Positions 40,977 through 52,441 of a stretch of DNA of 64,000 bases are shown in pieces. The stretch's first letter is position 1; each line of letters starts with the position of its first letter. The position numbers and the translations under genes were made by a program. Under the pieces are notes generated by a model. That model was not told the DNA's origin, searched no databases, and saw nothing but the letters and a program-made list of their open reading frames with translations. The stretch is from contig JAJPKO010000053.1 of the NCBI GenBank assembly GCA_021323655.1, positions 62,001-126,000 of the forward strand, given 5' to 3'. The DNA comes from Acidobacteriaceae bacterium. GTDB taxonomy: Bacteria > Acidobacteriota > Terriglobia > Terriglobales > Acidobacteriaceae.

Positions 40977-42104
40977 CTACCAGACCGGCGGCGGTTCCTG
41001 CAAAGGAGGCAGCGGAGGGAGTGGGGGTTCCACCATGGTCGCGACTGGCTCTTCTTCCGGAGGCTCAAGCCGGTTCCCCAGCTCCGGGTAGCGCGAGCCA
41101 AAGAAATACACGGCATACGATTCTTTCAGCACGGCCACTGTTCCGTAAATCGCAATCATTACCACAAAATAAAGAAGCAGCAGCGCCAGCGCCATGATCG
41201 CTGCGATGACGATAAATCCTACTTGCAGGGCAATTCCACCGTGCCACATGAGGTGATAGAGAAGCAGCCCCAGCAGCACTCCTCCTGACCCAAGAACAAG
41301 CAGCGCAATTCCCAAAATGATGACCAGCGCCCAGCTCAGACCGATCGAAAGTACGAAGCGCAAAAGCAGATAGCCCAGAAACGTGCCGGGGCCATCTTTC
41401 AGAAGTTCAAAGAAGCGCCGGAAAGCAGCCTCGATCGGCGCATCGTCAATGGCCATCGGAGGCAGCACAAAATCCTGCAAAACGGTATCTACAATCACCC
41501 ACAGGAATGCAAGAAGCAGCATAACTCCCATGAGCGGAAGCATGGCCGCAAACATTGGAAAAGGATTGGGGTTCGGACCCTGTACCGCCATACCGCTGAT
41601 GGTTTTCACCATGCGCACGAAGAGCGGCCCCAGGGCGATGACTGCGACCACCAGAAAGACCAGGGACGCAAGGACCATAACACAGAAATAGCGCCACGTT
41701 TGCCGGCCATATTTTGCCCATGCCCCACGCACGCTGCCCTGCTTGTAAACCACCAGATCAAACAGCGTGAAGCGTAGCCGGCATAAAAAATAGATACATC
41801 CAACCCAGACTGCAAACCCGACAAGCACAAGAATGGCGAGAATGACAATCCCGGCAACCGTGCCAATTCCAGGCTGCCATGCGGCAAAGTCCATCGTGCG
41901 CTGGTGGCGCGAGGCGGCCATGCTCGCGGCGGCCTGCGCACCCTGCGCGGGGTACGAAATCAGAACGGAGTAAAAGGTCGGCTGTGTCAGTGCGGCCACC
42001 AGAGCAATCTTCAGGAAAAATCCAAGGCGAAATGGGGCAAACAGCACCTCCCGTGTGCGGCGGAAGGCCGGGCCAATGCAGTCAGTCGGTGAAAGAATTT
42101 TCAT
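40977..42104 (-). CDS. Multi-pass membrane protein of unknown function
   Basis: A 375-residue protein with six to eight hydrophobic helices (for example residues 22-42, 80-110, 140-165, 190-215, 245-285 and 290-330). The start MKILSPTDCIGPAFRRTREVLFAPF and the cytoplasmic loop CRLRFTLFDLVVYKQGSVRGAW look like a family of uncharacterised archaeal and bacterial membrane proteins (DUF7544-like), but I cannot confirm it. The C-terminus is a proline-rich tail (PPLPPLPPLQEPPP). It diverges from the TonB receptor gene across a region with a promoter and two operators. Confidence 0.72.
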   Translation of the reverse strand: MKILSPTDCIGPAFRRTREVLFAPFRLGFFLKIALVAALTQPTFYSVLISYPAQGAQAAASMAASRHQRTMDFAAWQPGIGTVAGIVILAILVLVGFAVWVGCIYFLCRLRFTLFDLVVYKQGSVRGAWAKYGRQTWRYFCVMVLASLVFLVVAVIALGPLFVRMVKTISGMAVQGPNPNPFPMFAAMLPLMGVMLLLAFLWVIVDTVLQDFVLPPMAIDDAPIEAAFRRFFELLKDGPGTFLGYLLLRFVLSIGLSWALVIILGIALLVLGSGGVLLGLLLYHLMWHGGIALQVGFIVIAAIMALALLLLYFVVMIAIYGTVAVLKESYAVYFFGSRYPELGNRLEPPEEEPVATMVEPPLPPLPPLQEPPPVW

Positions 42105-42189
42105 TTTGCAGATGAGGGTATGGCATTCCGGGGGTGCCGGGCAATCGGGATTTTCAAGGCATGATTATGGAGCCTCCGCCCCGTGCGCA

Positions 42190-42205
42190 AAACGTCGTGA
42201 CGTTT
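42190..42205. promoter_or_regulatory. Inverted repeat AAACGTC-GT-GACGTTT (possible operator)
   Basis: A 16-bp palindrome with 7-bp perfect arms and a 2-bp centre, 75 bp upstream of the TTGACA box of the TonB receptor gene. It resembles a LacI-family half-site arrangement (AAACG at the arms). It may serve as a second operator, or for the divergent gene at 40977-42104. Confidence 0.45.
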
Positions 42206-42263
42206 ACAGCAAATTCAATTAACTGCGCGATTATAGGCAGCAGCCATATCCTACATCTGGTGC

Positions 42264-42293
42264 TTGACAGTGACCATTACTAGCAAATACATT
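42264..42293 (+). promoter_or_regulatory. Sigma-70-type promoter of the TonB receptor gene
   Basis: A perfect TTGACA (42264-42269) followed after 18 bp by TACATT (42288-42293), which matches four of six consensus bases. Transcription would start near 42300, next to the palindrome at 42304-42321 and about 90 bp ahead of the ATG. Confidence 0.5.
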
Positions 42294-42303
42294 GCGTGTG
42301 CTG

Positions 42304-42321
42304 ATTGGAAACGATTCCAAT
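42304..42321. promoter_or_regulatory. LacI-type operator, ATTGGAA-ACGA-TTCCAAT
   Basis: An 18-bp palindrome with perfect 7-bp arms and the centre AAACGATT, the classic look of LacI/GalR-family operators. It covers the expected transcription start of the TonB receptor gene, a place where bound repressor blocks initiation. No LacI-family gene is in the window. Control of a TonB receptor by a sugar-responsive LacI protein would fit uptake of glycans. Confidence 0.6.
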
Positions 42322-42393
42322 GAGCGCCTAAAACATAGCACGTTTTACCAACTGAAAGCAGCCGTACCCACTTTTCCCCCTTAGGAGGGTTTT

Positions 42394-45300
42394 ATGTTCA
42401 TTCGTTGGAGGACGCACCTGACGCTATTGCTCGCAGTAGTTTTCGGAATGTCTCCGATACTGCTGGGGCAATCTGATTCGGCATCCATCTCAGGCACAAT
42501 TACAGATTCGGCGGGGGCCGTGGTTCCCCGCGCCACCGTCACCATCCGCAATGAGGCTACCCAGGAATCACGCACAGCCACATCCAATGATGCTGGCTTC
42601 TACACCGTTTCCAGCCTGCCTCCAGGCATGTACACCATTCAAATCGAGGCCCAGGGCTTTCAAAGCTTTGTTCAACAGCATACGCATCTTGACCCCAGCA
42701 TTGGTCTGCGCGTAGATGCGGCCCTGAAAATCGGCAGCTCTTCCACAACAGTCAATGTGGTCGCCAATGCCAACGTCGTCCAGACGGAAACCGCCGCTGT
42801 GGGCCAGTTGGTCACACGACAGCAGGTGCAGGCCATCCAGCTGAATGGGCGTAACCCCATCTATCTCGCCCAAATGGAGCCGGGCGTTCGCCGCGGCAAT
42901 TCGATGTCTGCCTTTGGCTTTGGGCTGGACAATCCTTTCAACATCAACGGTTCGAATTACCGCGAAAACAGCCAAATATGGGACGGCGCCCCCATGGTGC
43001 GCAGTCGCGGCAATGGCACCAGCGTAGGCGTCGCTGACGTGGATTCGACTTCAGAGATGCAGGTCCTTACCGCCGCCTATCCGGCAGAGTATGGCCGTTC
43101 ATCCGGAGGGCTCATCCGTATTGTGCCGCGCAGTGGAAGCAGCGAATTTCATGGCGCGCTCTTTGAATACCTGCGCAATTCGTTCTTCAACGCGAACACC
43201 TGGGTACGCAAACTACCCACCAATCCTGAGAACATCCGGAACCATCCGCAGGCATTCCGCTTCAACCAGTTCGGCTGGAACTTCAGCGGTCCGGTCTACA
43301 TTCCGGGACTGCACTTCAACGAAGGGCGGAAAAAGCTGTTCTTCCTTGCCGGGCAGGAATTTCTGCGCTATCGGCATGACGACACCGTCACCCGAAAAGT
43401 GCCGACCATGCTCATGCGGACCGGAGACTTCAGCGAACTGCTGAATCCGAGCAACATTTTTTATGGGAAAGCTGTTCAGCTTGTAGATCCCAACACCGGC
43501 CAGAATTATCCTGGCAACGTCATTCCACCAAGCGAGCGCAGCGCCAATGGTCTGGGACTTCTCAATGCCTATCCTGCGCCGAACGTCAGTAACCCCAGCT
43601 ACAACTGGATAGATGCCGCCATCTACCCTGAAGACCAGCGCAAGGACACGCTGGTGGTGGACTACATCCCCGCCGATAATCATCACCTGCGTTTTTCGCT
43701 GCTGAATTACAACTACGACAGCGTCTCACCGCACTATGGCAACTTCAACCGCACTCCTCAGGTCTGGCATCGCCCCAACCAGGTTGCGGTCTTCCATTAC
43801 ACCTGGACGATCAACTCCACGACCGTAAACGATGCTTTTGTTTCCGGTAGCGCCGACCACGTTCGTATCGGCTATAACCTGTCCAAGGGACTTTACGACC
43901 GCACAAAGTACGGCATCAACTATCCGTATCTTTATCCCGCGGGCGACAAGGAAATCCCGAACAAAATCCCGACCATCAATATCGCCAACTTTGACACGCT
44001 GGATGGCGGCCCTTACCCATCGCACTCGGGTGGCGTTGTCTGGGACTTTGGCGACAGCCTGACCAAAGTGCTTGGCAAACACACTCTCAAGGTAGGGTTT
44101 CTCTATGAGCGTGAAAGCCAGAACGATTTCGACCAGATCAATGTAAGCTCCACCACCCCGGGCGCCACCAACAACCAGAACGGTTTATTTCGCTTTACTG
44201 ACACACATGGAGGAGCGCCTACTTCCAATGCCGCCGTCGCCAACGCTGCACTAGGCATGTTCGACACGTACGGCGAAATCGGAGTCCGCTCCTACACCAT
44301 TTATCTGAGCAATATGTATGAGTACTTTGCTCAGGACACCTGGCGTGTTACACCTCGCCTGGTGATCGAGTATGGCATTCGCCACAGCATCATGTTGCCG
44401 TACTACGCCAAGTGGGGAAACCAGTCCTTCTTTTCGCCCGCTGTTTATGATCCGGCCACCGCGCCCGCGGTTGATCCCAACAGCGGCTTCGTTTCCGGTT
44501 CAAACCTGATGGACGGAATTGTGATTCCCGGCAGCGGCTTCCCCAGCTCTGCCAAAGGTCACGTTCCCGACAGCATCCTGAACAACAGTTACTACAAAAC
44601 ACTCTTCCACGGCTTCGACCGCGGCTACAATCCTGTCGTCTGGACCAACATTCAGCCGCGCGTCGGTATTACGTTTTCGCTTGATCCGAAGACCGTCATT
44701 CGCGCTGGAGGAGGCCGCTTCTTTGACCGCCTCGGCGTGAGTGACACTGTCCACCTCGGCGGAAACCCCCCGTTCCAGCCCTCCGGCACAGTCAGTTTCG
44801 GCTCCGTAGACAACCCGGGCGGCATAGGAACCAACAATTACCCCATCAACATGACCTCCTACGCCTACCACTTCCCTTCTCCGGAAGCCTGGTCATGGAC
44901 GGTCACCGCCGAACACGAATTTCCTGAGATCGGCATTTTCACGTTGGGATATGTAGGTCGGCGCGGTATCCACCTGCAGCACATGGAAAATCTCAACCAG
45001 TTGCTCCCCGGCACGCTGATAGCGGACCCGGTCAAGAAGCCGGACATTCTTCGCCCGTATCAAGGGTATTCCGTCATTCAGCAACAGGTCAACGACGGCA
45101 GGTCTATCTATCACTCGCTGCAGGCCGACCTGCGGCGGCGCGTAACGCATGGCCTGATGTTTGGCATTGCGTACACGTGGTCCAAGAGCCTGGATTCTAC
45201 TTCGGACGCAGGCAACAACATTCCCAACTACTTTGACCCAATGGAGTACTGGGGACCGAGCGACTACGATACCCGTCACATCGTCGTAGCCAATTACGTC

Positions 45301-45837
45301 TGGGACCTTCCCTTCGCCACCCACGCATCCAACTGGGCCGTCCGGAATGTCTTCGGCAAATGGCAGCTCTCCGGTACATCCCAGTTCCAGAGCGGTTCGC
45401 CGTTGTCTATCTCCACTGGAGACGACTTTGCCGGCGTCGGGCCTGGTTCCGGCAATCAGCTCTGGGTCAGGACTGGGTCAGTGCAGCTGCTGAAGCAGAG
45501 CGCGCCCAACAACTCCAGGAATGCCTACTGGTTCAACAAGTGGATATTCCAGAAACCCACTGCCGGAACCTTTGCTCCGCGCGAAACCCGCAACCAGGTC
45601 TATGGTCCAGGTTTCCAGAGCTGGAACATCGCCATGCAGAAGGTGTTTCCCATCATTCCTTCACATGAGAACCACCAGCTCATCTTCCGCGGCGAAGCAT
45701 TCAACTTCACCAATCACCCCAACCTGAGCAATCCGGACACCAATCCGACCAGCAGCACCTTCGGAAAGGTGACAACCAAAGGCAACACGTATGCCTCTGA
45801 CCGTCAATTGCAGTTCAGCCTGCGTTACCAGTTCTAA
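42394..45837 (+). CDS. TonB-dependent receptor with N-terminal carboxypeptidase-regulatory domain (Oar-like)
   Basis: A 1147-residue outer membrane receptor. Signal peptide to about residue 25 (ILLGQ); residues 30-110 form a CarboxypepD-reg beta-sandwich (SISGTITDSAGAVVPRATVTI, then the TSNDAGFYTVSSLPPGMYTI pair); residues 120-230 are the plug (TAAVGQLVTRQQVQAIQLNGRN, INGSNYRENSQIWDGA); the rest is a large barrel ending in LQFSLRYQF with the final phenylalanine. These Oar-like receptors are multiplied in Acidobacteria and are thought to import glycans or oligomers. TTAGGAGGG precedes the ATG. A palindromic operator and promoter lie upstream, and a strong terminator follows, so it is a single-gene unit. 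Confidence 0.92.
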   Translation: MFIRWRTHLTLLLAVVFGMSPILLGQSDSASISGTITDSAGAVVPRATVTIRNEATQESRTATSNDAGFYTVSSLPPGMYTIQIEAQGFQSFVQQHTHLDPSIGLRVDAALKIGSSSTTVNVVANANVVQTETAAVGQLVTRQQVQAIQLNGRNPIYLAQMEPGVRRGNSMSAFGFGLDNPFNINGSNYRENSQIWDGAPMVRSRGNGTSVGVADVDSTSEMQVLTAAYPAEYGRSSGGLIRIVPRSGSSEFHGALFEYLRNSFFNANTWVRKLPTNPENIRNHPQAFRFNQFGWNFSGPVYIPGLHFNEGRKKLFFLAGQEFLRYRHDDTVTRKVPTMLMRTGDFSELLNPSNIFYGKAVQLVDPNTGQNYPGNVIPPSERSANGLGLLNAYPAPNVSNPSYNWIDAAIYPEDQRKDTLVVDYIPADNHHLRFSLLNYNYDSVSPHYGNFNRTPQVWHRPNQVAVFHYTWTINSTTVNDAFVSGSADHVRIGYNLSKGLYDRTKYGINYPYLYPAGDKEIPNKIPTINIANFDTLDGGPYPSHSGGVVWDFGDSLTKVLGKHTLKVGFLYERESQNDFDQINVSSTTPGATNNQNGLFRFTDTHGGAPTSNAAVANAALGMFDTYGEIGVRSYTIYLSNMYEYFAQDTWRVTPRLVIEYGIRHSIMLPYYAKWGNQSFFSPAVYDPATAPAVDPNSGFVSGSNLMDGIVIPGSGFPSSAKGHVPDSILNNSYYKTLFHGFDRGYNPVVWTNIQPRVGITFSLDPKTVIRAGGGRFFDRLGVSDTVHLGGNPPFQPSGTVSFGSVDNPGGIGTNNYPINMTSYAYHFPSPEAWSWTVTAEHEFPEIGIFTLGYVGRRGIHLQHMENLNQLLPGTLIADPVKKPDILRPYQGYSVIQQQVNDGRSIYHSLQADLRRRVTHGLMFGIAYTWSKSLDSTSDAGNNIPNYFDPMEYWGPSDYDTRHIVVANYVWDLPFATHASNWAVRNVFGKWQLSGTSQFQSGSPLSISTGDDFAGVGPGSGNQLWVRTGSVQLLKQSAPNNSRNAYWFNKWIFQKPTAGTFAPRETRNQVYGPGFQSWNIAMQKVFPIIPSHENHQLIFRGEAFNFTNHPNLSNPDTNPTSSTFGKVTTKGNTYASDRQLQFSLRYQF

Positions 45838-45908: not shown

Positions 45909-46889
45909 TCACCACGCCGTTGCCAGATACTCACCAAACCAGTCGCGCGCATCCGTCCAATGGTCGAAGAGATGAAAGCCCGCGCGCTCCAGCATTTCGA
46001 TCACATCTTCATCATGGAACTTGTAGCTGTTTTCTGTGTGGATGGTTTCTCCCGGCTGAAAGCCGATTTCAAGATCAAGCGCAGAGATCAAAACACGCTG
46101 CGCTACCAGACTCTCAAGATGCATCTCGATACGCGAAGACTTTTCGTTCCAGATGGCGCGATGCTGGAAGTGCTGCATCTCAAAGTTTGCGCCAAGCTCC
46201 CGGTTTATGCGTACGAGGACGTTAAGATTGAAGGCGGCCGTCACCTGCGCGGCGTCATTGTAAGCCGCGAGTAGCGGGCGCTGGTCCTTCACCATGTCCA
46301 CTCCAAGCAACAGCTTGTCTCCGGGCTTTAAGGGTTCGCGAATGTCGCGTAAAATGCGCAGCGCATCGGCTGGTTCAAAGTTTCCAATGCTGGAGCCGAT
46401 GTAAAGCACGAGGCGGCGTTCGCCTCTGGTCTCCGTGTGGCCCATTCCATTCGTGTAATCGGCGACGCGCGGCGTGACAGAGACGCCTGGGATTTCTGAT
46501 TCGAGGCGATGTTTGGCTTGGGCAAGCGGGGTCTCACTCACATCAATCGGGTAGTAAGCGACCGTCTTTTGTCTGCGCACCACGGCGGCCAGCAACAGTC
46601 CGGTTTTAGTAGCGGTACCTGCACCAAGCTCAATGACCGCAAGGCGCTCACACCTTGCCGCCGCAGAGATGATCGCATCGGCATGGTCGCTCAGAATGGA
46701 CCGCTCGATGCGTGTGAGATAGTACTCCGGAAGTTCCGTAATCTGCTCAAAAAGTTCCGAGCCGCGCTCATCATAAAAGAGCCACGGGCTCAGCCGTTTG
46801 GGAAATGCTGTCAGTCCGGAATAGACCTCTGACCCCACAGGACTGTATGCAGCCGGGGTGAAATGCGGTGTTGCTGAAAGAGCGTTCAT
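45909..46889 (-). CDS. egtD: L-histidine N(alpha)-methyltransferase (ergothioneine)
   Basis: A 326-residue SAM-dependent enzyme that trimethylates histidine to hercynine. The family N-terminus is SGLTAFPKRLSPWLFYDERGSELFEQITELPEYY; the SAM site is VIELGAGTATKT; LVLYIGSSIGNFEP and LLLGVDMVKD follow. The C-terminal region ETIHTENSYKFHDEDVIEMLERAGF carries the usual histidine-binding residues. Length is normal. It follows egtB on the same strand after 140 bp, so the pair probably forms one transcript for ergothioneine. Confidence 0.95.
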   Translation of the reverse strand: MNALSATPHFTPAAYSPVGSEVYSGLTAFPKRLSPWLFYDERGSELFEQITELPEYYLTRIERSILSDHADAIISAAARCERLAVIELGAGTATKTGLLLAAVVRRQKTVAYYPIDVSETPLAQAKHRLESEIPGVSVTPRVADYTNGMGHTETRGERRLVLYIGSSIGNFEPADALRILRDIREPLKPGDKLLLGVDMVKDQRPLLAAYNDAAQVTAAFNLNVLVRINRELGANFEMQHFQHRAIWNEKSSRIEMHLESLVAQRVLISALDLEIGFQPGETIHTENSYKFHDEDVIEMLERAGFHLFDHWTDARDWFGEYLATAW

Positions 46890-47029
46890 GAATCCTCTAA
46901 ATTCGTTACTTCTGCATTAAAGGCGGGTGCCCCAAACCTCGATTTTGAGAGGTGGGTTTGCAATGCCTCTCACCGATAACTCAGCACTAAGATGCTGTTT
47001 TCTTCATCCGGATACATCGGATGCTTCTA

Positions 47030-48277
47030 TCAATCTGCCAATCGGATGCCCGAAAACTGCCAGCGCGTGGCTGGCGAGAAAAAGTTGCGATAGCTGGCCC
47101 GGATATGGTTCTGTGGAGTGACGCAGGATCCACCGCGTAACACCATCTGGCTTGACATGAACTTGCCGTTGTATTCGCCCAGCGCTCCCGGTAGTGCGTG
47201 GTAGCCGGGGTAGCCCAGATACGCGCTGGCAGTCCACTCCCATACATCGCCATACATCTGTTCTGATGCCGCTGCCGGATGCAGTATGCCGCATTCCAGC
47301 AGATTCCCTTTCACCGTTTGTTCAGATGCGACGGTCTCCCATTCGGCTTCCGTGGGCAGGCGCTTCCCTGCCCAGCGCGCATAAGCATCGGCTTCAAAGT
47401 AACTCACATGGCATACAGGCGTCTGCTCCAGTTCAGAGAGCGGAACGTTGCCGCGCAAGGTGAAAATACTCCACGGCATCTCATCGTTTTCGCGATGCCA
47501 GTAGAGCGGAGCGCGCCATCCCTGCAACTGCACCGCCAGCCAGCCTTCTGACAGCCACAGTTCCGGGCGCTGATAGCCCCCGTTTTCCATAAAGGCGAAG
47601 TACTCCGCGCATGTCACCGGGCGCGATGCGAGCGTGAACGGACGGAGATAGACCTGATGACGCGGCAGCTCGTTATCGAAGCAGAAGCCTTCTCCCCGAT
47701 GGCCGATCTCGACAAGCCCGCCGGGATGCTCGTGCCAATTCAACATGGTTGTCGTCGCAGAAATTTTCTCCAACGGAAGATCGAGGTACGCAGGATGCAG
47801 CGGATTGGTCCAGAAGGCGTGCTTGATGTCGGTCAGCATAAGCTCCTGATGCTGCTGCTCATGATTGATCCCTAAAATGACCCTCTGTTCAATCTCTGGC
47901 GACGGCTCTTCTCGCAGCAGCTTTCCGAGCGCAGAATCTACGTGTTTGCGATAAGCGAGGATGTCTTCCATCGAAGGACGCGAGAAAACGGCGCGCAGCT
48001 TCTTCTCCGGCTGGTCAGAAACGGAGTTGTAATAGCTGTTAAAGAGCCAGAGAAAATCAGGATGGAAGGGTCGATAGCCGGGAGCAAATTCACGAAGAAT
48101 AAACGTTTCAAAAAACCAGGTGGTGTGCGCCAGATGCCACTTGGCAGGGCTTGCCTCAGGGCAGGACTGCACCATCATGTCCTCGGGTATGAGCGGATCA
48201 CAGAGCATCTCGCTCCGCGACCGCACACTACAATACTCAAGCGCCAAAGAGTGGGTGATTGCTGCCGCCTGACTCAT
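47030..48277 (-). CDS. egtB: Ergothioneine biosynthesis sulfoxide synthase EgtB
   Basis: A 415-residue iron enzyme with an N-terminal DinB-type helical domain and a C-terminal formylglycine-generating-enzyme-like domain. The three iron-binding histidines are H51 (WHLAHTTWF), H139 and H143 (HEQQHQE). The C-terminal domain has the VCHVSYFEADAYARWAGKRLPTEAEWE motif and ends FSPATRWQFSGIRLAD. It couples hercynine to a thiol donor (gamma-glutamylcysteine or cysteine). With egtD downstream, the pair suffices for the core pathway if a C-S lyase (EgtE) acts; none is in the window. It diverges from the DUF5666 gene. Confidence 0.95.
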   Translation of the reverse strand: MSQAAAITHSLALEYCSVRSRSEMLCDPLIPEDMMVQSCPEASPAKWHLAHTTWFFETFILREFAPGYRPFHPDFLWLFNSYYNSVSDQPEKKLRAVFSRPSMEDILAYRKHVDSALGKLLREEPSPEIEQRVILGINHEQQHQELMLTDIKHAFWTNPLHPAYLDLPLEKISATTTMLNWHEHPGGLVEIGHRGEGFCFDNELPRHQVYLRPFTLASRPVTCAEYFAFMENGGYQRPELWLSEGWLAVQLQGWRAPLYWHRENDEMPWSIFTLRGNVPLSELEQTPVCHVSYFEADAYARWAGKRLPTEAEWETVASEQTVKGNLLECGILHPAAASEQMYGDVWEWTASAYLGYPGYHALPGALGEYNGKFMSSQMVLRGGSCVTPQNHIRASYRNFFSPATRWQFSGIRLAD

Positions 48278-48459: not shown

Positions 48460-49125
48460 ATGAAAGTCCGTGTTCTTTTCGCTCTGGTTTTTCTCAGCTT
48501 GATGTCATTCGCCTTCGCGCAGCAGGAGGGCGGCCCGCAGCGCGGCTTCTTTGGAAATGGCATGCGGGGAACGGTCACTGCGATTTACGGCAATGAATTT
48601 ACTGTCAGAAATGAGCAGGGTGAAACCTGGAAGGTTGAAACCGGGGCCAACACCCGCTTCATGAAAGACCGCCAGCCTGCAAAGGCGTCCGAGATTCACG
48701 TAGGTGACATGATCGCGGCGGCCGGCGAGCAGAACGAGCAGGCCCACACCCTGGGTGCTGCGTTCCTGATTGTTCTGGATGCCGAAGCAGTACAGCGCAT
48801 CAAGCAGATGGAGGCGGACTTCGGAAAGACCTGGACGGCGGGCAAAGTCAAGGCAATCAACGACCTGGTGCTCACGGTGGAGCGTCCGGACAAGAAGACC
48901 CAGACCATCGCCGTAAACGAAAACACCTCGTTTCAAAAGCATCGTGAAAGCATCACGCTGGCCGACATCAAAGTCGGCGACATGGTAAGTGCGCGAGGCG
49001 CGCTCCAGAACGGAAACTTCGTCGCAACCGTATTGAATGTCATAGAGCCGCGCGGCCCGGGTCGAGGTGGTCTTGGAAATAATCCGGAAAATGGCCCTCA
49101 GCAGTCGCCGCAACAGCCCCAGTGA
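48460..49125 (+). CDS. Exported DUF5666-type protein
   Basis: A 221-residue exported protein with a signal peptide (cut at SFAFAQ, residue 20) and two beta-rich repeats of about 70 residues, each beginning GTVTAIYGNEFTVR or GKVKAINDLVLTVE and ending with GDMIAAAGE or GDMVSARG, the OB-like pattern of DUF5666. The C-terminus is a low-complexity P/Q/G tail. The family is common in Acidobacteria with unknown role, probably periplasmic. It ends about 25 bp before the start of a TonB receptor gene on the same strand, so the two are probably co-transcribed. Confidence 0.78.
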   Translation: MKVRVLFALVFLSLMSFAFAQQEGGPQRGFFGNGMRGTVTAIYGNEFTVRNEQGETWKVETGANTRFMKDRQPAKASEIHVGDMIAAAGEQNEQAHTLGAAFLIVLDAEAVQRIKQMEADFGKTWTAGKVKAINDLVLTVERPDKKTQTIAVNENTSFQKHRESITLADIKVGDMVSARGALQNGNFVATVLNVIEPRGPGRGGLGNNPENGPQQSPQQPQ

Positions 49126-49150
49126 ATCTATATCTATGAGGAGAGCCTGC

Positions 49151-52100
49151 GTGCGACGATTGCTGCCAATCTGCCTTCTGCTCGCCTTTTCTCTCTGCCC
49201 TGGACAAGCGCAGAATACTTCTGCTGGTGGAATCATCCACGGCTCCATCAGATCGGGAAGTACGCCACTGCCCGGCGTGAGCATCACTGCAACCAATACG
49301 CTCACAGGCAAAAAGTACAGCACCGTCACAGACTCGACCGGAGCCTACACCCTGAATATTCCGCAAAACGGGCGCTACGTGGTGCGCACGGATTTTGCCG
49401 CCTTTGCTGCGGAGACCAAAGAAGTGCTCTTTAACGCCACCGCTGCTCATAATCAGCAGGCGGACTTTGCCCTCACGCTCGCCTCTCGCGTGCAGCAGCA
49501 GGAAGGCACAAGCCAGGTAACGCAGGCCATACGGAGCCTCGGCGGCCCGCAAAATCTCAGCCTTGTGAACGCAGCCTCTGGACTCATTCAGGCAGGAAAC
49601 GGCAATGCTGCTTCCGACACTTTCCTTCCGTCGCTGGCAAACAATTCTGATTTCTCCAACGAATCCGTCGCCGTAAACGGACAGGGTGGCTCCACCAGCC
49701 CATTTGCCGGAATGGACATGGGCCAGATGCGCGAGAACATGGAGAACATGCAGTTCGAGCAGTCGCTCTCCCAGACTCCCGGTAGTGGCGGCGGAAAAGG
49801 TGGCACCGGAGGTTTCGGTGGCGGCCCCATGTTTTTCGGAGGACCGCGCGGCGCGCGCAACAACTTCCGCAACTTCAAGTTCAACCAGCCGCATGGCGCT
49901 ATCTTCTGGAACGGCGGCAACTCTGCATTGAATGCCGAGCCTTTTTCTGTTCGCGGAGCGCCGCTGAATCAGCCCGCTTACAGCTCCAACCACTTTGGCC
50001 TCACCTTTGTGGGCGCGCCATACGTCCCCAAACTGCTTGAGAATGACACGAAAGACTTTCTCTTTTTCATGCTCTCCGGCAATCGCACCTCCTCTCCCTT
50101 CAATCAGTACGGCACCGTTCCTACCAGTGATGAACGCTCCGGAAATCTGTCATCTCTGGTCAACCAGCTAGGCCAGCCGATCACCATCTACGATCCGCAA
50201 ACCGGGCAGCCGTTTCCGAACAACACAATTCCATCCCAGCGCATTGCACCGCAGGCAGCAGCACTGCTCAATTACGTCCCACTGCCCAACCTGCCCGGAC
50301 GCACACAGAACTACCAGCGCATCAGTACCTCGCAGAACAACACAACGAACGTCGGCGTACGCTACATGCGCAGCTTTGGACAAGGTGCCGGGTCGCCCAT
50401 CATCGGTATGATCCGGCAATTTATGGGGCAGGGTGGCAATAGCTGGCGCCAGAGCATCAACGGCAATTTCAACTACAGCCATAATGCCTCCGACGAGATG
50501 AACATCTTTCCTCAGTTAGGTGGCAAGGAGCAGATGCACGATTACTCCGTGCAGGCGGGCTACTCTCTCAGCAAAGGACGGCTCGTCAATAATCTCACCG
50601 TTGGCTGGAACCGCAGCAACACCCAATTGACAAACTACTTCACCAACACCACGGACGTTGCCCGCCAGCTAGGCGTCAACATATTCAACGGAGAAGCGGC
50701 CTCTCCGCTCAATTATGGCCTTCCCAATCTGGCGCTGAACCAGTTCACTCAATTCAAGGAGCAACAGCCCAACTTCCACGTGAACCAGACCATCTCGATC
50801 TCTGAATCCAGCTCGTGGATGCACAAAAAGAACAACTTCCGCTTCGGCGTAGACTTCCGCCGCGTGCACCTGGACATGATTGGCGCCACGAGTAACTCTA
50901 CCGGGACCTTCTACTTTACCGGGTATTTCACACAAGCCCCGGGCACCAACCCGAACACCAGCGGAGCGCTTGCCACCAGTGGCTCTTCTCTTGCCGACTT
51001 GCTGCTTGGCCTGCCTCAGCAGACAGCTCTGCAAGCGCCTTATCAGAAGGCATATCTACGCGAGAATGTCTTTGAAGCTTATTTTCAGGACAGTTGGCAG
51101 GCACTTCCGAATTTCACCGTACTGGCCGGTCTGCGCTATGAATATTTCTCGCCCTATTCAGAAAAGAACGACCGGCTGGTAAATCTGGATGCCGGCAACA
51201 ACTTCACATCGGTCATTCCCGTGTATCCCAATGGCGTGGGTCCATACTCGGGCAGATACTCCCGCACGTTGATTGAACCGGAGCACCTCGACTTTTCTCC
51301 GCGCATTGGTTTTGCATGGCGCGCAGTCAAAAACACGGTCGTACGCGCGGGCTATGGCATTAACTTCGCCAATGGACAGTATGTGAAGTTCGTTCAGAAC
51401 TTCGCCTTCCAGCCGCCCTTTGCCGACGTACAGACCAACGAAGCCACTTCAGGAGCGGACATCACTCTGGCCAACGGTTTTCCCGGCGCACAGACCATCG
51501 GCAACTATGCCGTCAATAAAAACTATCGTCTGCCTTACGTCCAGGTGTGGAACATAGATGTGCAGCGCACACTGCCGCTTGGCATTGTTCTCAACGTAGG
51601 CTACAACGGCTCCAAGGGCACGCGCCTTGATATCGTCAGCGCACCCGGACGTACGGCCACCGAATCCCTGAGCGGCTACTACTATGACTGGGAAGACTCC
51701 ATCGCGTTTTCCAACTACAACGCGCTGGCCGTGCGCCTGCGCAAGCGTATGCAGAACGGCATTGCCCTGGGCGCCACCTACACCTATTCGCACTCCATTG
51801 ATAATGCCAGCTCTATTGGCGGCAACGGCGGGACCGGTTTGACCGTCGCGCAGAACTGGCAAAACCTGCTCGCCGAAGAATCCAACTCCAGCTTTGACGT
51901 CCGGCATAACCTGCGCGGCGATTTCGTCTATGAACTCCCCTTCGGCCCGGACACGCACCTGCTCACCAGCGGCAATTGGCTCTCGCACACCCTGGCAAAT
52001 ATCTCCGTTTCCGGGACATTCCAGTTCGCAACCGGCGAGCCGCTCACGCCTGCATACGCAGCCGCTGTGGCCGATGTGGCACGTGGCAGCGCAGGCTCAC

Positions 52101-52441
52101 TGCGTCCGGACCGCGTAGCAGGGTCTTCCATCACACAAGGCGGAGGCTCCTTGCGCAACTGGTTCAACCGCGCAGCCTTCGCTGAGCCTGCCCGAACATA
52201 CGGCACCGCATCGCGCTACTCAATTCCAGGCCCGGGAACTGTGTCGTTTGATGCATCGCTATCCAAAAGCATCCGCATGGGCGACTTCCGCAATCTGGAA
52301 CTGCGCGCCACCGCGGAGAATGTGTTCAACACTGTGCAATATGCAAGCGTGGATACGACCCTCGGCTCTGCCACCTACGGACAAGTAACCTCCGCAGCGC
52401 AGATGCGCCAATTCACCTTTATGGGCAGATTCCGCTTCTAG
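49151..52441 (+). CDS. TonB-dependent receptor with carboxypeptidase-regulatory domain and glycine-rich plug insert
   Basis: An outer membrane receptor of about 1096 residues. I start at GTG 49151, where AGGAGAG lies 5 nt upstream, giving the signal peptide MRRLLPICLLLAFSLCPGQAQ; an ATG at 49136 in the same frame has no ribosome site. Residues 25-110 are a CarboxypepD-reg domain (GGIIHGSIRSGSTPLPGVSI). The plug follows, with an unusual glycine-rich insert around residues 215-245 (GSGGGKGGTGGFGGGP) before the NGGNSALNAEPFSVRG segment. The barrel ends RQFTFMGRFRF with terminal phenylalanine. It shares ordering with the DUF5666 gene before it and the VWA gene after it. Confidence 0.88.
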   Translation: MRRLLPICLLLAFSLCPGQAQNTSAGGIIHGSIRSGSTPLPGVSITATNTLTGKKYSTVTDSTGAYTLNIPQNGRYVVRTDFAAFAAETKEVLFNATAAHNQQADFALTLASRVQQQEGTSQVTQAIRSLGGPQNLSLVNAASGLIQAGNGNAASDTFLPSLANNSDFSNESVAVNGQGGSTSPFAGMDMGQMRENMENMQFEQSLSQTPGSGGGKGGTGGFGGGPMFFGGPRGARNNFRNFKFNQPHGAIFWNGGNSALNAEPFSVRGAPLNQPAYSSNHFGLTFVGAPYVPKLLENDTKDFLFFMLSGNRTSSPFNQYGTVPTSDERSGNLSSLVNQLGQPITIYDPQTGQPFPNNTIPSQRIAPQAAALLNYVPLPNLPGRTQNYQRISTSQNNTTNVGVRYMRSFGQGAGSPIIGMIRQFMGQGGNSWRQSINGNFNYSHNASDEMNIFPQLGGKEQMHDYSVQAGYSLSKGRLVNNLTVGWNRSNTQLTNYFTNTTDVARQLGVNIFNGEAASPLNYGLPNLALNQFTQFKEQQPNFHVNQTISISESSSWMHKKNNFRFGVDFRRVHLDMIGATSNSTGTFYFTGYFTQAPGTNPNTSGALATSGSSLADLLLGLPQQTALQAPYQKAYLRENVFEAYFQDSWQALPNFTVLAGLRYEYFSPYSEKNDRLVNLDAGNNFTSVIPVYPNGVGPYSGRYSRTLIEPEHLDFSPRIGFAWRAVKNTVVRAGYGINFANGQYVKFVQNFAFQPPFADVQTNEATSGADITLANGFPGAQTIGNYAVNKNYRLPYVQVWNIDVQRTLPLGIVLNVGYNGSKGTRLDIVSAPGRTATESLSGYYYDWEDSIAFSNYNALAVRLRKRMQNGIALGATYTYSHSIDNASSIGGNGGTGLTVAQNWQNLLAEESNSSFDVRHNLRGDFVYELPFGPDTHLLTSGNWLSHTLANISVSGTFQFATGEPLTPAYAAAVADVARGSAGSLRPDRVAGSSITQGGGSLRNWFNRAAFAEPARTYGTASRYSIPGPGTVSFDASLSKSIRMGDFRNLELRATAENVFNTVQYASVDTTLGSATYGQVTSAAQMRQFTFMGRFRF

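Follow-up and report, generated by a model that had tools for sequence, protein, structure and literature searches.

A receptor gene that stands alone, with no regulator gene at its side, raises the questions of what controls its expression and what the receptor carries. Such a gene, encoding the Oar-like TonB-dependent receptor P0001 (1147 amino acids; 42394..45837, plus strand), is found in a 64,000-nucleotide stretch of the genome of a soil bacterium of the Acidobacteriaceae, hereafter the window (positions 62001-126000 of contig C59 of genome G000, which comprises 4.59 Mb in 65 contigs). The palindrome in front of it, at 42304..42321 on the plus strand, was proposed in an initial annotation to be a LacI-type operator that covers the expected transcription start and answers, through a LacI-family protein encoded elsewhere, to a defined glycan signal. 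The analysis reported here supports this proposal and indicates that the glycans are likely alpha-mannosides: the site would be part of an alpha-mannoside regulon of Acidobacteriaceae, controlled by a LacI-family protein of the ManR kind, and P0001 probably imports alpha-manno-oligosaccharides.

P0001 gives matches over the cut-offs for PF13620 (CarboxypepD_reg), PF07715 (plug) and PF25183 (OMP_b-brl_4 barrel), that is, for the regulatory-type domain, the plug and the large outer-membrane barrel of Oar-like receptors; the prediction that it takes up alpha-manno-oligosaccharides draws on the gene neighbours of its relatives. From the sequence, a ribosome-binding site AGGAGG is read at 42383..42388 (plus strand). 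On the same strand, a -35 hexamer TTGACA (42264..42269) is followed after 18 bp by a -10 hexamer TACATT (42288..42293); this is the sole sigma-70-like match in 41950-42500 (shuffle mean 0.5), and identical hexamers, with the same spacing and the same distance to the operator, precede the 90%-identical receptor of G017, a sister species of the same genus, so that the promoter first annotated here stands. The operator, ATTGGAAACGATTCCAAT, has its core TGGAAACGATTCCA at 42306-42319 (plus strand). It had been described as a perfect palindrome; its place over the expected start is as described, but its symmetry is 16/18, with arms ATTGGAA/TTCCAAT around the centre ACGA. Assuming a start about 7 bp past the -10 hexamer, it is predicted to span approximately +4 to +21, and its centre lies 81.5 bp 5' of the ATG at 42394. 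With its even length and central CG it has the form ascribed to LacI-family operators in PMC4052901. With up to 3 mismatches, ATTGGAAACGATTCCAAT is found in the window just at 42304-42321, once per strand (shuffles expect 0.07). As a bare inverted repeat it does not stand out, and neither does a second palindrome upstream, at 42190-42205: with exact 7-bp arms and a 2-4 bp spacer, 9 inverted repeats are present in the window and about 12 are expected at random. The case for 42304-42321 as an operator is therefore made by its recurrence and conservation, and not by the rarity of inverted repeats.

Throughout the genome, the pattern TTGGAAACGATTCCAA with up to 3 mismatches has 23 forward and 18 reverse matches, as against 6 and 4 for the same pattern written backwards, and exact TGGWAACGATTCCA occurs 8 times. 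The class motif TGGDADCGHTHCCA has 11 sites, versus 1 for the reversed pattern, counts that are not fully independent, since the class was defined after the sites of this genome and of its relatives were known. These 11 class sites head 10 transcription units, each site lying at the beginning of its unit or close to it, and the units share one theme. Five units encode PF25183 receptors: P0001 in the window, its 63% paralogue on C63, a receptor with two sites 102 bp apart (17924 and 18026) at 14-18 kb of C59, a receptor followed by a glycoside hydrolase family 92 (GH92) alpha-mannosidase on C8, and one accompanied by a GH3 protein on C16. The others are two GH38 alpha-mannosidases (C5 and C60), a GH76 alpha-mannanase (C61), a putative GxGYxYP hydrolase (C43, 7730-9832) and, on C3, a ROK kinase with a sugar porter, directly behind a LacI-family gene, the site lying between the LacI and ROK genes. 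The copies elsewhere in the genome that the initial annotation had proposed to look for do exist, with related genes downstream of them. Mannosidases, sugar kinases and transporters are typical targets of ManR, and here GH38, GH76, GH92, ROK and sugar porter genes lie behind class sites, from which their common control is deduced.

The genes were called by a simple open reading frame (ORF) script; the names of the targets come either from Pfam or from similarity to a protein tested against Pfam. At C8, C16, C43 and one of the two sites near 18 kb of C59, the site falls 37-54 bp inside the longest ORF, and the true gene start is probably a later one. The association extends to the only GH76 and the only intact GH92 of the genome, both of which have a site; among the four matches of PF01074 (GH38N) over the cut-off of 25, the best two, C60 and C5 (266 and 131 bits), have one as well. 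PF25183 has 68 matches, a few of which are fragments of a single gene; five of the 68 correspond to receptors preceded by a site. When one mismatch is allowed, the looser motif TGGNANCGNTNCCA gives 191 matches versus 137 for the control and is too noisy to extend the regulon, and weaker targets may therefore be missed.

Some features of these sites and targets deserve mention in their own right. The GH38 gene of C60 (about 13.7 kb; L069) has an in-frame stop near the N-terminus where its relatives read through, which a nonsense mutation or an error in the assembly might explain. Two motif copies 21-23 bp apart, that is, two helical turns, are present at the promoters of L183, L184, L216, L239, L241, L260 and C8, the second copy being at times one base off the class, while C63 and G017 have a weaker second site 32 bp past the first; such pairs suggest side-by-side binding. 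GxGYxYP hydrolases (PF14323) lie behind the operator on C43 and in G066 and G019 (by Pfam; loci L173, L180 and L197 listed), and in G072 by likeness only, an arrangement that suggests a role of this family in alpha-mannoside breakdown.

The likely regulator is the product of the LacI-family gene of C3 (138964-140046), a protein of 360 amino acids with the recognition helix VGTTTVSRVING. It scores 67.1 bits for PF00356 (cut-off 27), 99.4 for PF13377 (26.5) and 110.3 for PF00532 (22.2), and thus combines the N-terminal helix-turn-helix and the periplasmic-binding-protein-like sensor domain of LacI-family regulators. In the whole genome PF00356 has 14 matches, 13 of them over the cut-off and none on C59, in agreement with the earlier statement that no regulator gene is local. 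Among the NCBIfam models, two RbsR models score best for this protein (220 and 189 bits), and it exceeds no equivalog cut-off (best 220 versus 382).

The link between this protein and the motif was followed in 120 genomes of the taxonomic family, which were searched for the C3 protein and for exact TGGWAACGATTCCA. The motif gave 46 sites in 20/120 genomes, as against 3 control matches, and orthologues of the C3 protein with at least 57% identity were found in 15/120. The exact motif is present in 13/15 orthologue genomes versus 7/105 others (Fisher P 8e-11); when a site at regulon-type genes is counted alone, the figures become 11/15 and 1/105 (P 1e-11), the lone genome, G097, having a 44% LacI relative about 5 kb from the site, and these comparisons are to be read with both identity cut-offs, 44% and 57%, chosen after the lists were known. 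By our own reading, in which some genes are named by likeness, 32/46 exact sites lie at receptor, ROK, GxGYxYP or GH38/47/76/92 genes. The motif in G072 lies in the gap that separates the LacI orthologue from a GxGYxYP-like gene of opposite direction, and a receptor and a GH38 gene are close by. Less favourably, the site of G100 is about 120 bp inside the called start of a GH92 gene. In G035 the gap between the LacI and ROK genes holds a class variant, TGGGAACGTTTCCA. A GH47 family protein lies behind an operator in G070 (L167, 4896-6047); GH47 is an alpha-mannosidase family usually regarded as eukaryotic.

A wider scan of genome contigs, made with an alignment of 12 orthologues, leads to the same picture. 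The best 80 of 85 relatives were taken as loci, and 53 of these are Acidobacteria loci with at least 44% identity, some of them from genomes also in the 120-genome set, which span Acidobacterium, Acidipila, Paracidobacterium, Terracidiphilus, Granulicella, Silvibacterium, Acidicapsa, Occallatibacter and metagenome-assembled genomes (MAGs). A class site was found in 34/53 of them, with 47 sites over a total of 627 kb and none in the reversed control, and a GH38, GH76 or GH92 gene in 28/53; the site counts, too, are not fully independent of the way in which the class was defined. In 18 control loci around LacI paralogues 37-43% identical to the C3 protein, three of them from one genome (G072), the corresponding figures are 0/18 and 1/18 (Fisher P 6e-7 for sites and 3e-4 for genes); a short fragment, L287, was dropped from both LacI groups. 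The motif thus lies repeatedly in front of genes related in function, and its occurrence goes together with that of a single regulator; both facts speak for a distant LacI-family protein as the reader of the window site and, among the paralogues of the genome, for the one encoded on C3.

The receptor itself is tied to the same genes in other species. In a tree, P0001 and its G017 orthologue stand beside the receptors of G019, Silvibacterium bohemicum, Acidipila sp. EB88 and G070 and the C63 paralogue, and a class site lies upstream of 6/7 receptors of this subfamily, so that the palindrome is conserved in front of these receptors with the exception of that of G019. Receptors 59% and 58% identical to P0001, from Silvibacterium (L243) and Acidipila EB88 (L245) respectively, are divergent from the LacI orthologue, with operators between the two genes; the EB88 receptor has a GH38 gene behind it. 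In G134, from another family (L175), a 46% receptor relative is divergent from a GH38 gene. The seemingly lone receptor therefore belongs to regulator loci in two relatives and to alpha-mannosidase loci in two. The intergenic region between receptor and GH38 gene in L175 (9220-9542) has a different LacI-like palindrome around AAAACGTTTT, and the link between the two genes may be older than the class operator.

The position of the operator relative to the promoter could be compared for 31 of the 46 exact sites, which were oriented to a gene; the 15 left out are the 13 off-regulon sites described below, less one before a pro-kumamolisin-domain protein, together with L167, L168 and L200. TTGACA is present in 15/31; it always lies 44-53 bp upstream of the operator centre, and no other copy falls within 200 bp (shuffles mean 0.12). 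The site in front of P0001 belongs here, an arrangement that fits repression through blocking of the start. In 8/31 (5 ROK, 2 GH38 and 1 GH92 genes), a count made without a chance control, the operator half TTTCCA itself stands where the -35 hexamer would be and is followed, after 17-18 bp, by a TAtAnT-like hexamer.

From these data the following mechanism can be proposed. The regulator encoded on C3 would act in trans on the operator. With no sugar bound, it would sit on the operator from about +4 to +21 and block transcription of the receptor gene; in the presence of alpha-mannosides or mannose, the presumed effectors, it would let go and the receptor would be made. The GH38 and GH92 alpha-mannosidases, the GH76 alpha-mannanase, the GxGYxYP hydrolase, four other Oar-like receptors and the unit of ROK kinase and sugar porter would be co-induced, and the receptor would import alpha-manno-oligosaccharides, for example from fungal mannan or N-glycans.

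Several observations weigh against this scheme. In the loci examined, no class site accompanies the GH38N matches of C37 and C44 (67 and 64 bits), and none precedes the C3 LacI gene itself, the site there preceding the ROK gene. Among receptor relatives, the motif is missing upstream of that of G019 (62%) and of that of G134. Thirteen of the 46 exact sites lie at other genes or inside ORFs (G035, 2; G083, 1; G033, 1 of 2; G066, 2 of 6; and G014, G045, G051, G054, G091 and G105, 7 together), and one more, L168 in G070, is unconfirmed; G035 and G083, two of the 13 orthologue genomes with the motif, have exact sites only at such unrelated places. As many as 19/53 LacI loci are devoid of a class site. 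The C3 kinase, which is ROK glucokinase-like and below the family cut-off, does not by itself indicate mannose, and the operator over the -35 region in 8/31 sites, which suits repression by occlusion, would also suit activation. The last two points lead to the alternatives that survive best.

It may be asked whether the regulon is real and its signal is not a mannoside, but rather a broader carbon signal, glucose for example, or a different glycan, with the receptor importing something else. The nearest named models of the ROK kinase and of the porter are indeed glucokinase and xylose/glucose transporters, matched under their cut-offs; moreover, one unit includes a GH3 protein, another a GxGYxYP hydrolase of unknown substrate, and one G066 site precedes a pro-kumamolisin-domain protein. 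Mannose is proposed as the signal because of the hydrolases and not because of the kinase: the recurring enzyme families are GH38, GH47, GH76 and GH92, which are families of alpha-mannosidases and alpha-mannanases, and relatives of P0001 adjoin GH38 genes in L245 and L175. A signal other than a mannoside is thus considered unlikely. Still somewhat less likely is a dual role, in which the regulator would repress where it covers the start, as at P0001, and activate where it overlaps a poor -35 region. The existence of two promoter classes, 15/31 of TTGACA type versus 8/31 with the operator half in the -35 place, is what such a role would predict; on the other hand, occlusion accounts equally well for an operator over the -35 region, and the absence of a chance control for the smaller class bears on its weight here as well.

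Another possibility is that the same operators are read by a different LacI paralogue, for instance one of the C6 type, instead of the C3 protein. Thirteen PF00356 matches over the cut-off offer candidates, and the C6 protein (42% identical to that of C3) has a similar helix, VGTMTVSRVLNG. As reported above, no class site was found at any of the 18 paralogue loci, the occurrence of the motif tracks the C3 orthologues, and all the 16 helices that could be read among the 18 have M in place of the second T of the C3 group. This alternative, judged very improbable, was rejected. Because one of the two search peptides was the helix VG[TI]TTVSRV, the scan also caught unrelated LacI proteins of other phyla (28-31% identical). 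Among the proteins with VGTTTVSR, the helix that they share with the C3 protein, 12/20 have a class site near the beginning of the matched stretch (from 320 bp upstream to 100 bp downstream of it), a range in which no site was found for the four VGITTVSR and the two VSISTVSK proteins; 3/4 VGITTVSR loci have class sites some 4-5 kb away, and the reversed control gave 1 site across the 26 other-phylum loci. Support from outside the phylum thus favours the view that the helix VGTTTVSR reads the class motif. The loci L264-L290 with the helix VGTTTVSRV, about 30% identical overall, come from Firmicutes, Chloroflexi and a Burkholderiales MAG.

The initial annotation had also paired the operator with the upstream palindrome, AAACGTCGTGACGTTT (42190..42205), as sites bridged by looping. 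The two are 115 bp apart from centre to centre, a spacing at which one LacI tetramer might hold both, and true pairs of the same motif are found elsewhere at similar distances, 102 bp on C59 (17924/18026) and 129 bp in L243. A lac-type looping pair consists of two like operators at looping distance, whereas AAACGTCGTGACGTTT, symmetric at 14/16 positions, is unlike ATTGGAAACGATTCCAAT in sequence. It does not recur, with 9 genome-wide places at up to 2 mismatches versus 24 for the reversed pattern; its arms are not found in the 400 bp that precede the G017 receptor, the orthologue in the sister species; and it is no commoner than chance inverted repeats in the window. Judged on these comparisons of sequence, the palindrome at 42190-42205 is unrelated to the operator and was not counted as part of the operator system, and neither the pair nor the loop was upheld, looping being highly improbable. 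That ATTGGAAACGATTCCAAT is a chance sequence, as its being a kind of inverted repeat expected by chance and the exact copies inside unrelated ORFs in some relatives might suggest, is practically negated by its recurrence, its conservation, the gene theme and the fixed promoter geometry.

The alpha-mannoside regulon proposed here can be compared with known systems. LacI-family local regulons for mannose and mannosides (ManR) have been described, with ManR listed under 5 orthologous groups, and neither "acidobacter" nor "TonB" appears in the main text of that work (PMC4052901, 2014). The likeness to ManR regulons is one of target genes, no described ManR sequence having been compared; in the present genome, the targets are dispersed and Oar-like receptors are among them. 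In full-length architecture and helix-turn-helix the C3 protein is alike to the RbsR/CcpA/PurR branch, and RbsR, CcpA and PurR are among the solved chains that score best with it by sequence; since it falls far short of the curated cut-off of every LacI-family NCBIfam model, it is by this test none of the named NCBIfam regulators. In the SusC/SusD-type polysaccharide utilisation loci of Bacteroidetes, a TonB receptor is expressed with glycoside hydrolases under sugar control. The same association is predicted here, but no SusD flanks the receptor, the genes of the regulon are dispersed and joined by a common operator, and the receptors are of the PF25183/CarboxypepD_reg (Oar-like) kind. The available part of PMC4850484 covers Pedobacter, Mucilaginibacter and Luteibacter, and not regulation in Acidobacteria; a full-text search, mostly outside the subscription literature, found no paper on an acidobacterial LacI/TonB operator or regulon. 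LacI-family sugar regulons are a known kind, which would appear here in Acidobacteriaceae with Oar-like receptors among its targets.

As for the surroundings of the receptor gene, its upstream neighbour is a DUF7544 gene transcribed leftward (40977-42104, minus strand; domain search), and the other flanking gene encodes a histidine-specific methyltransferase (PF10017). The latter lies beside an FGE-sulfatase/DinB protein (45909-48277), in an arrangement like that of ergothioneine synthesis (EgtD/EgtB). Another Oar-like receptor (PF25183), with no class site in front, is encoded at 49067-52441 of the window.

To our knowledge, the substrates of the dozens of Oar-like TonB receptors of this genome are unassigned. 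A common operator that links five of these receptors with alpha-mannosidases and with one regulator gives a substrate prediction that can be checked, and through it the GxGYxYP hydrolase family, too, is connected to alpha-mannoside metabolism. As a broader and tentative idea, which we hold to be plausible while falling a little short of probable, Acidobacteriaceae may sort their many Oar-like receptors by glycan through single LacI operators scattered over the genome instead of through gene clusters. The operator of a lone receptor would then tell its substrate, and P0001 and the four other receptors would form an alpha-mannan set, probably for fungal wall mannan or N-glycans.
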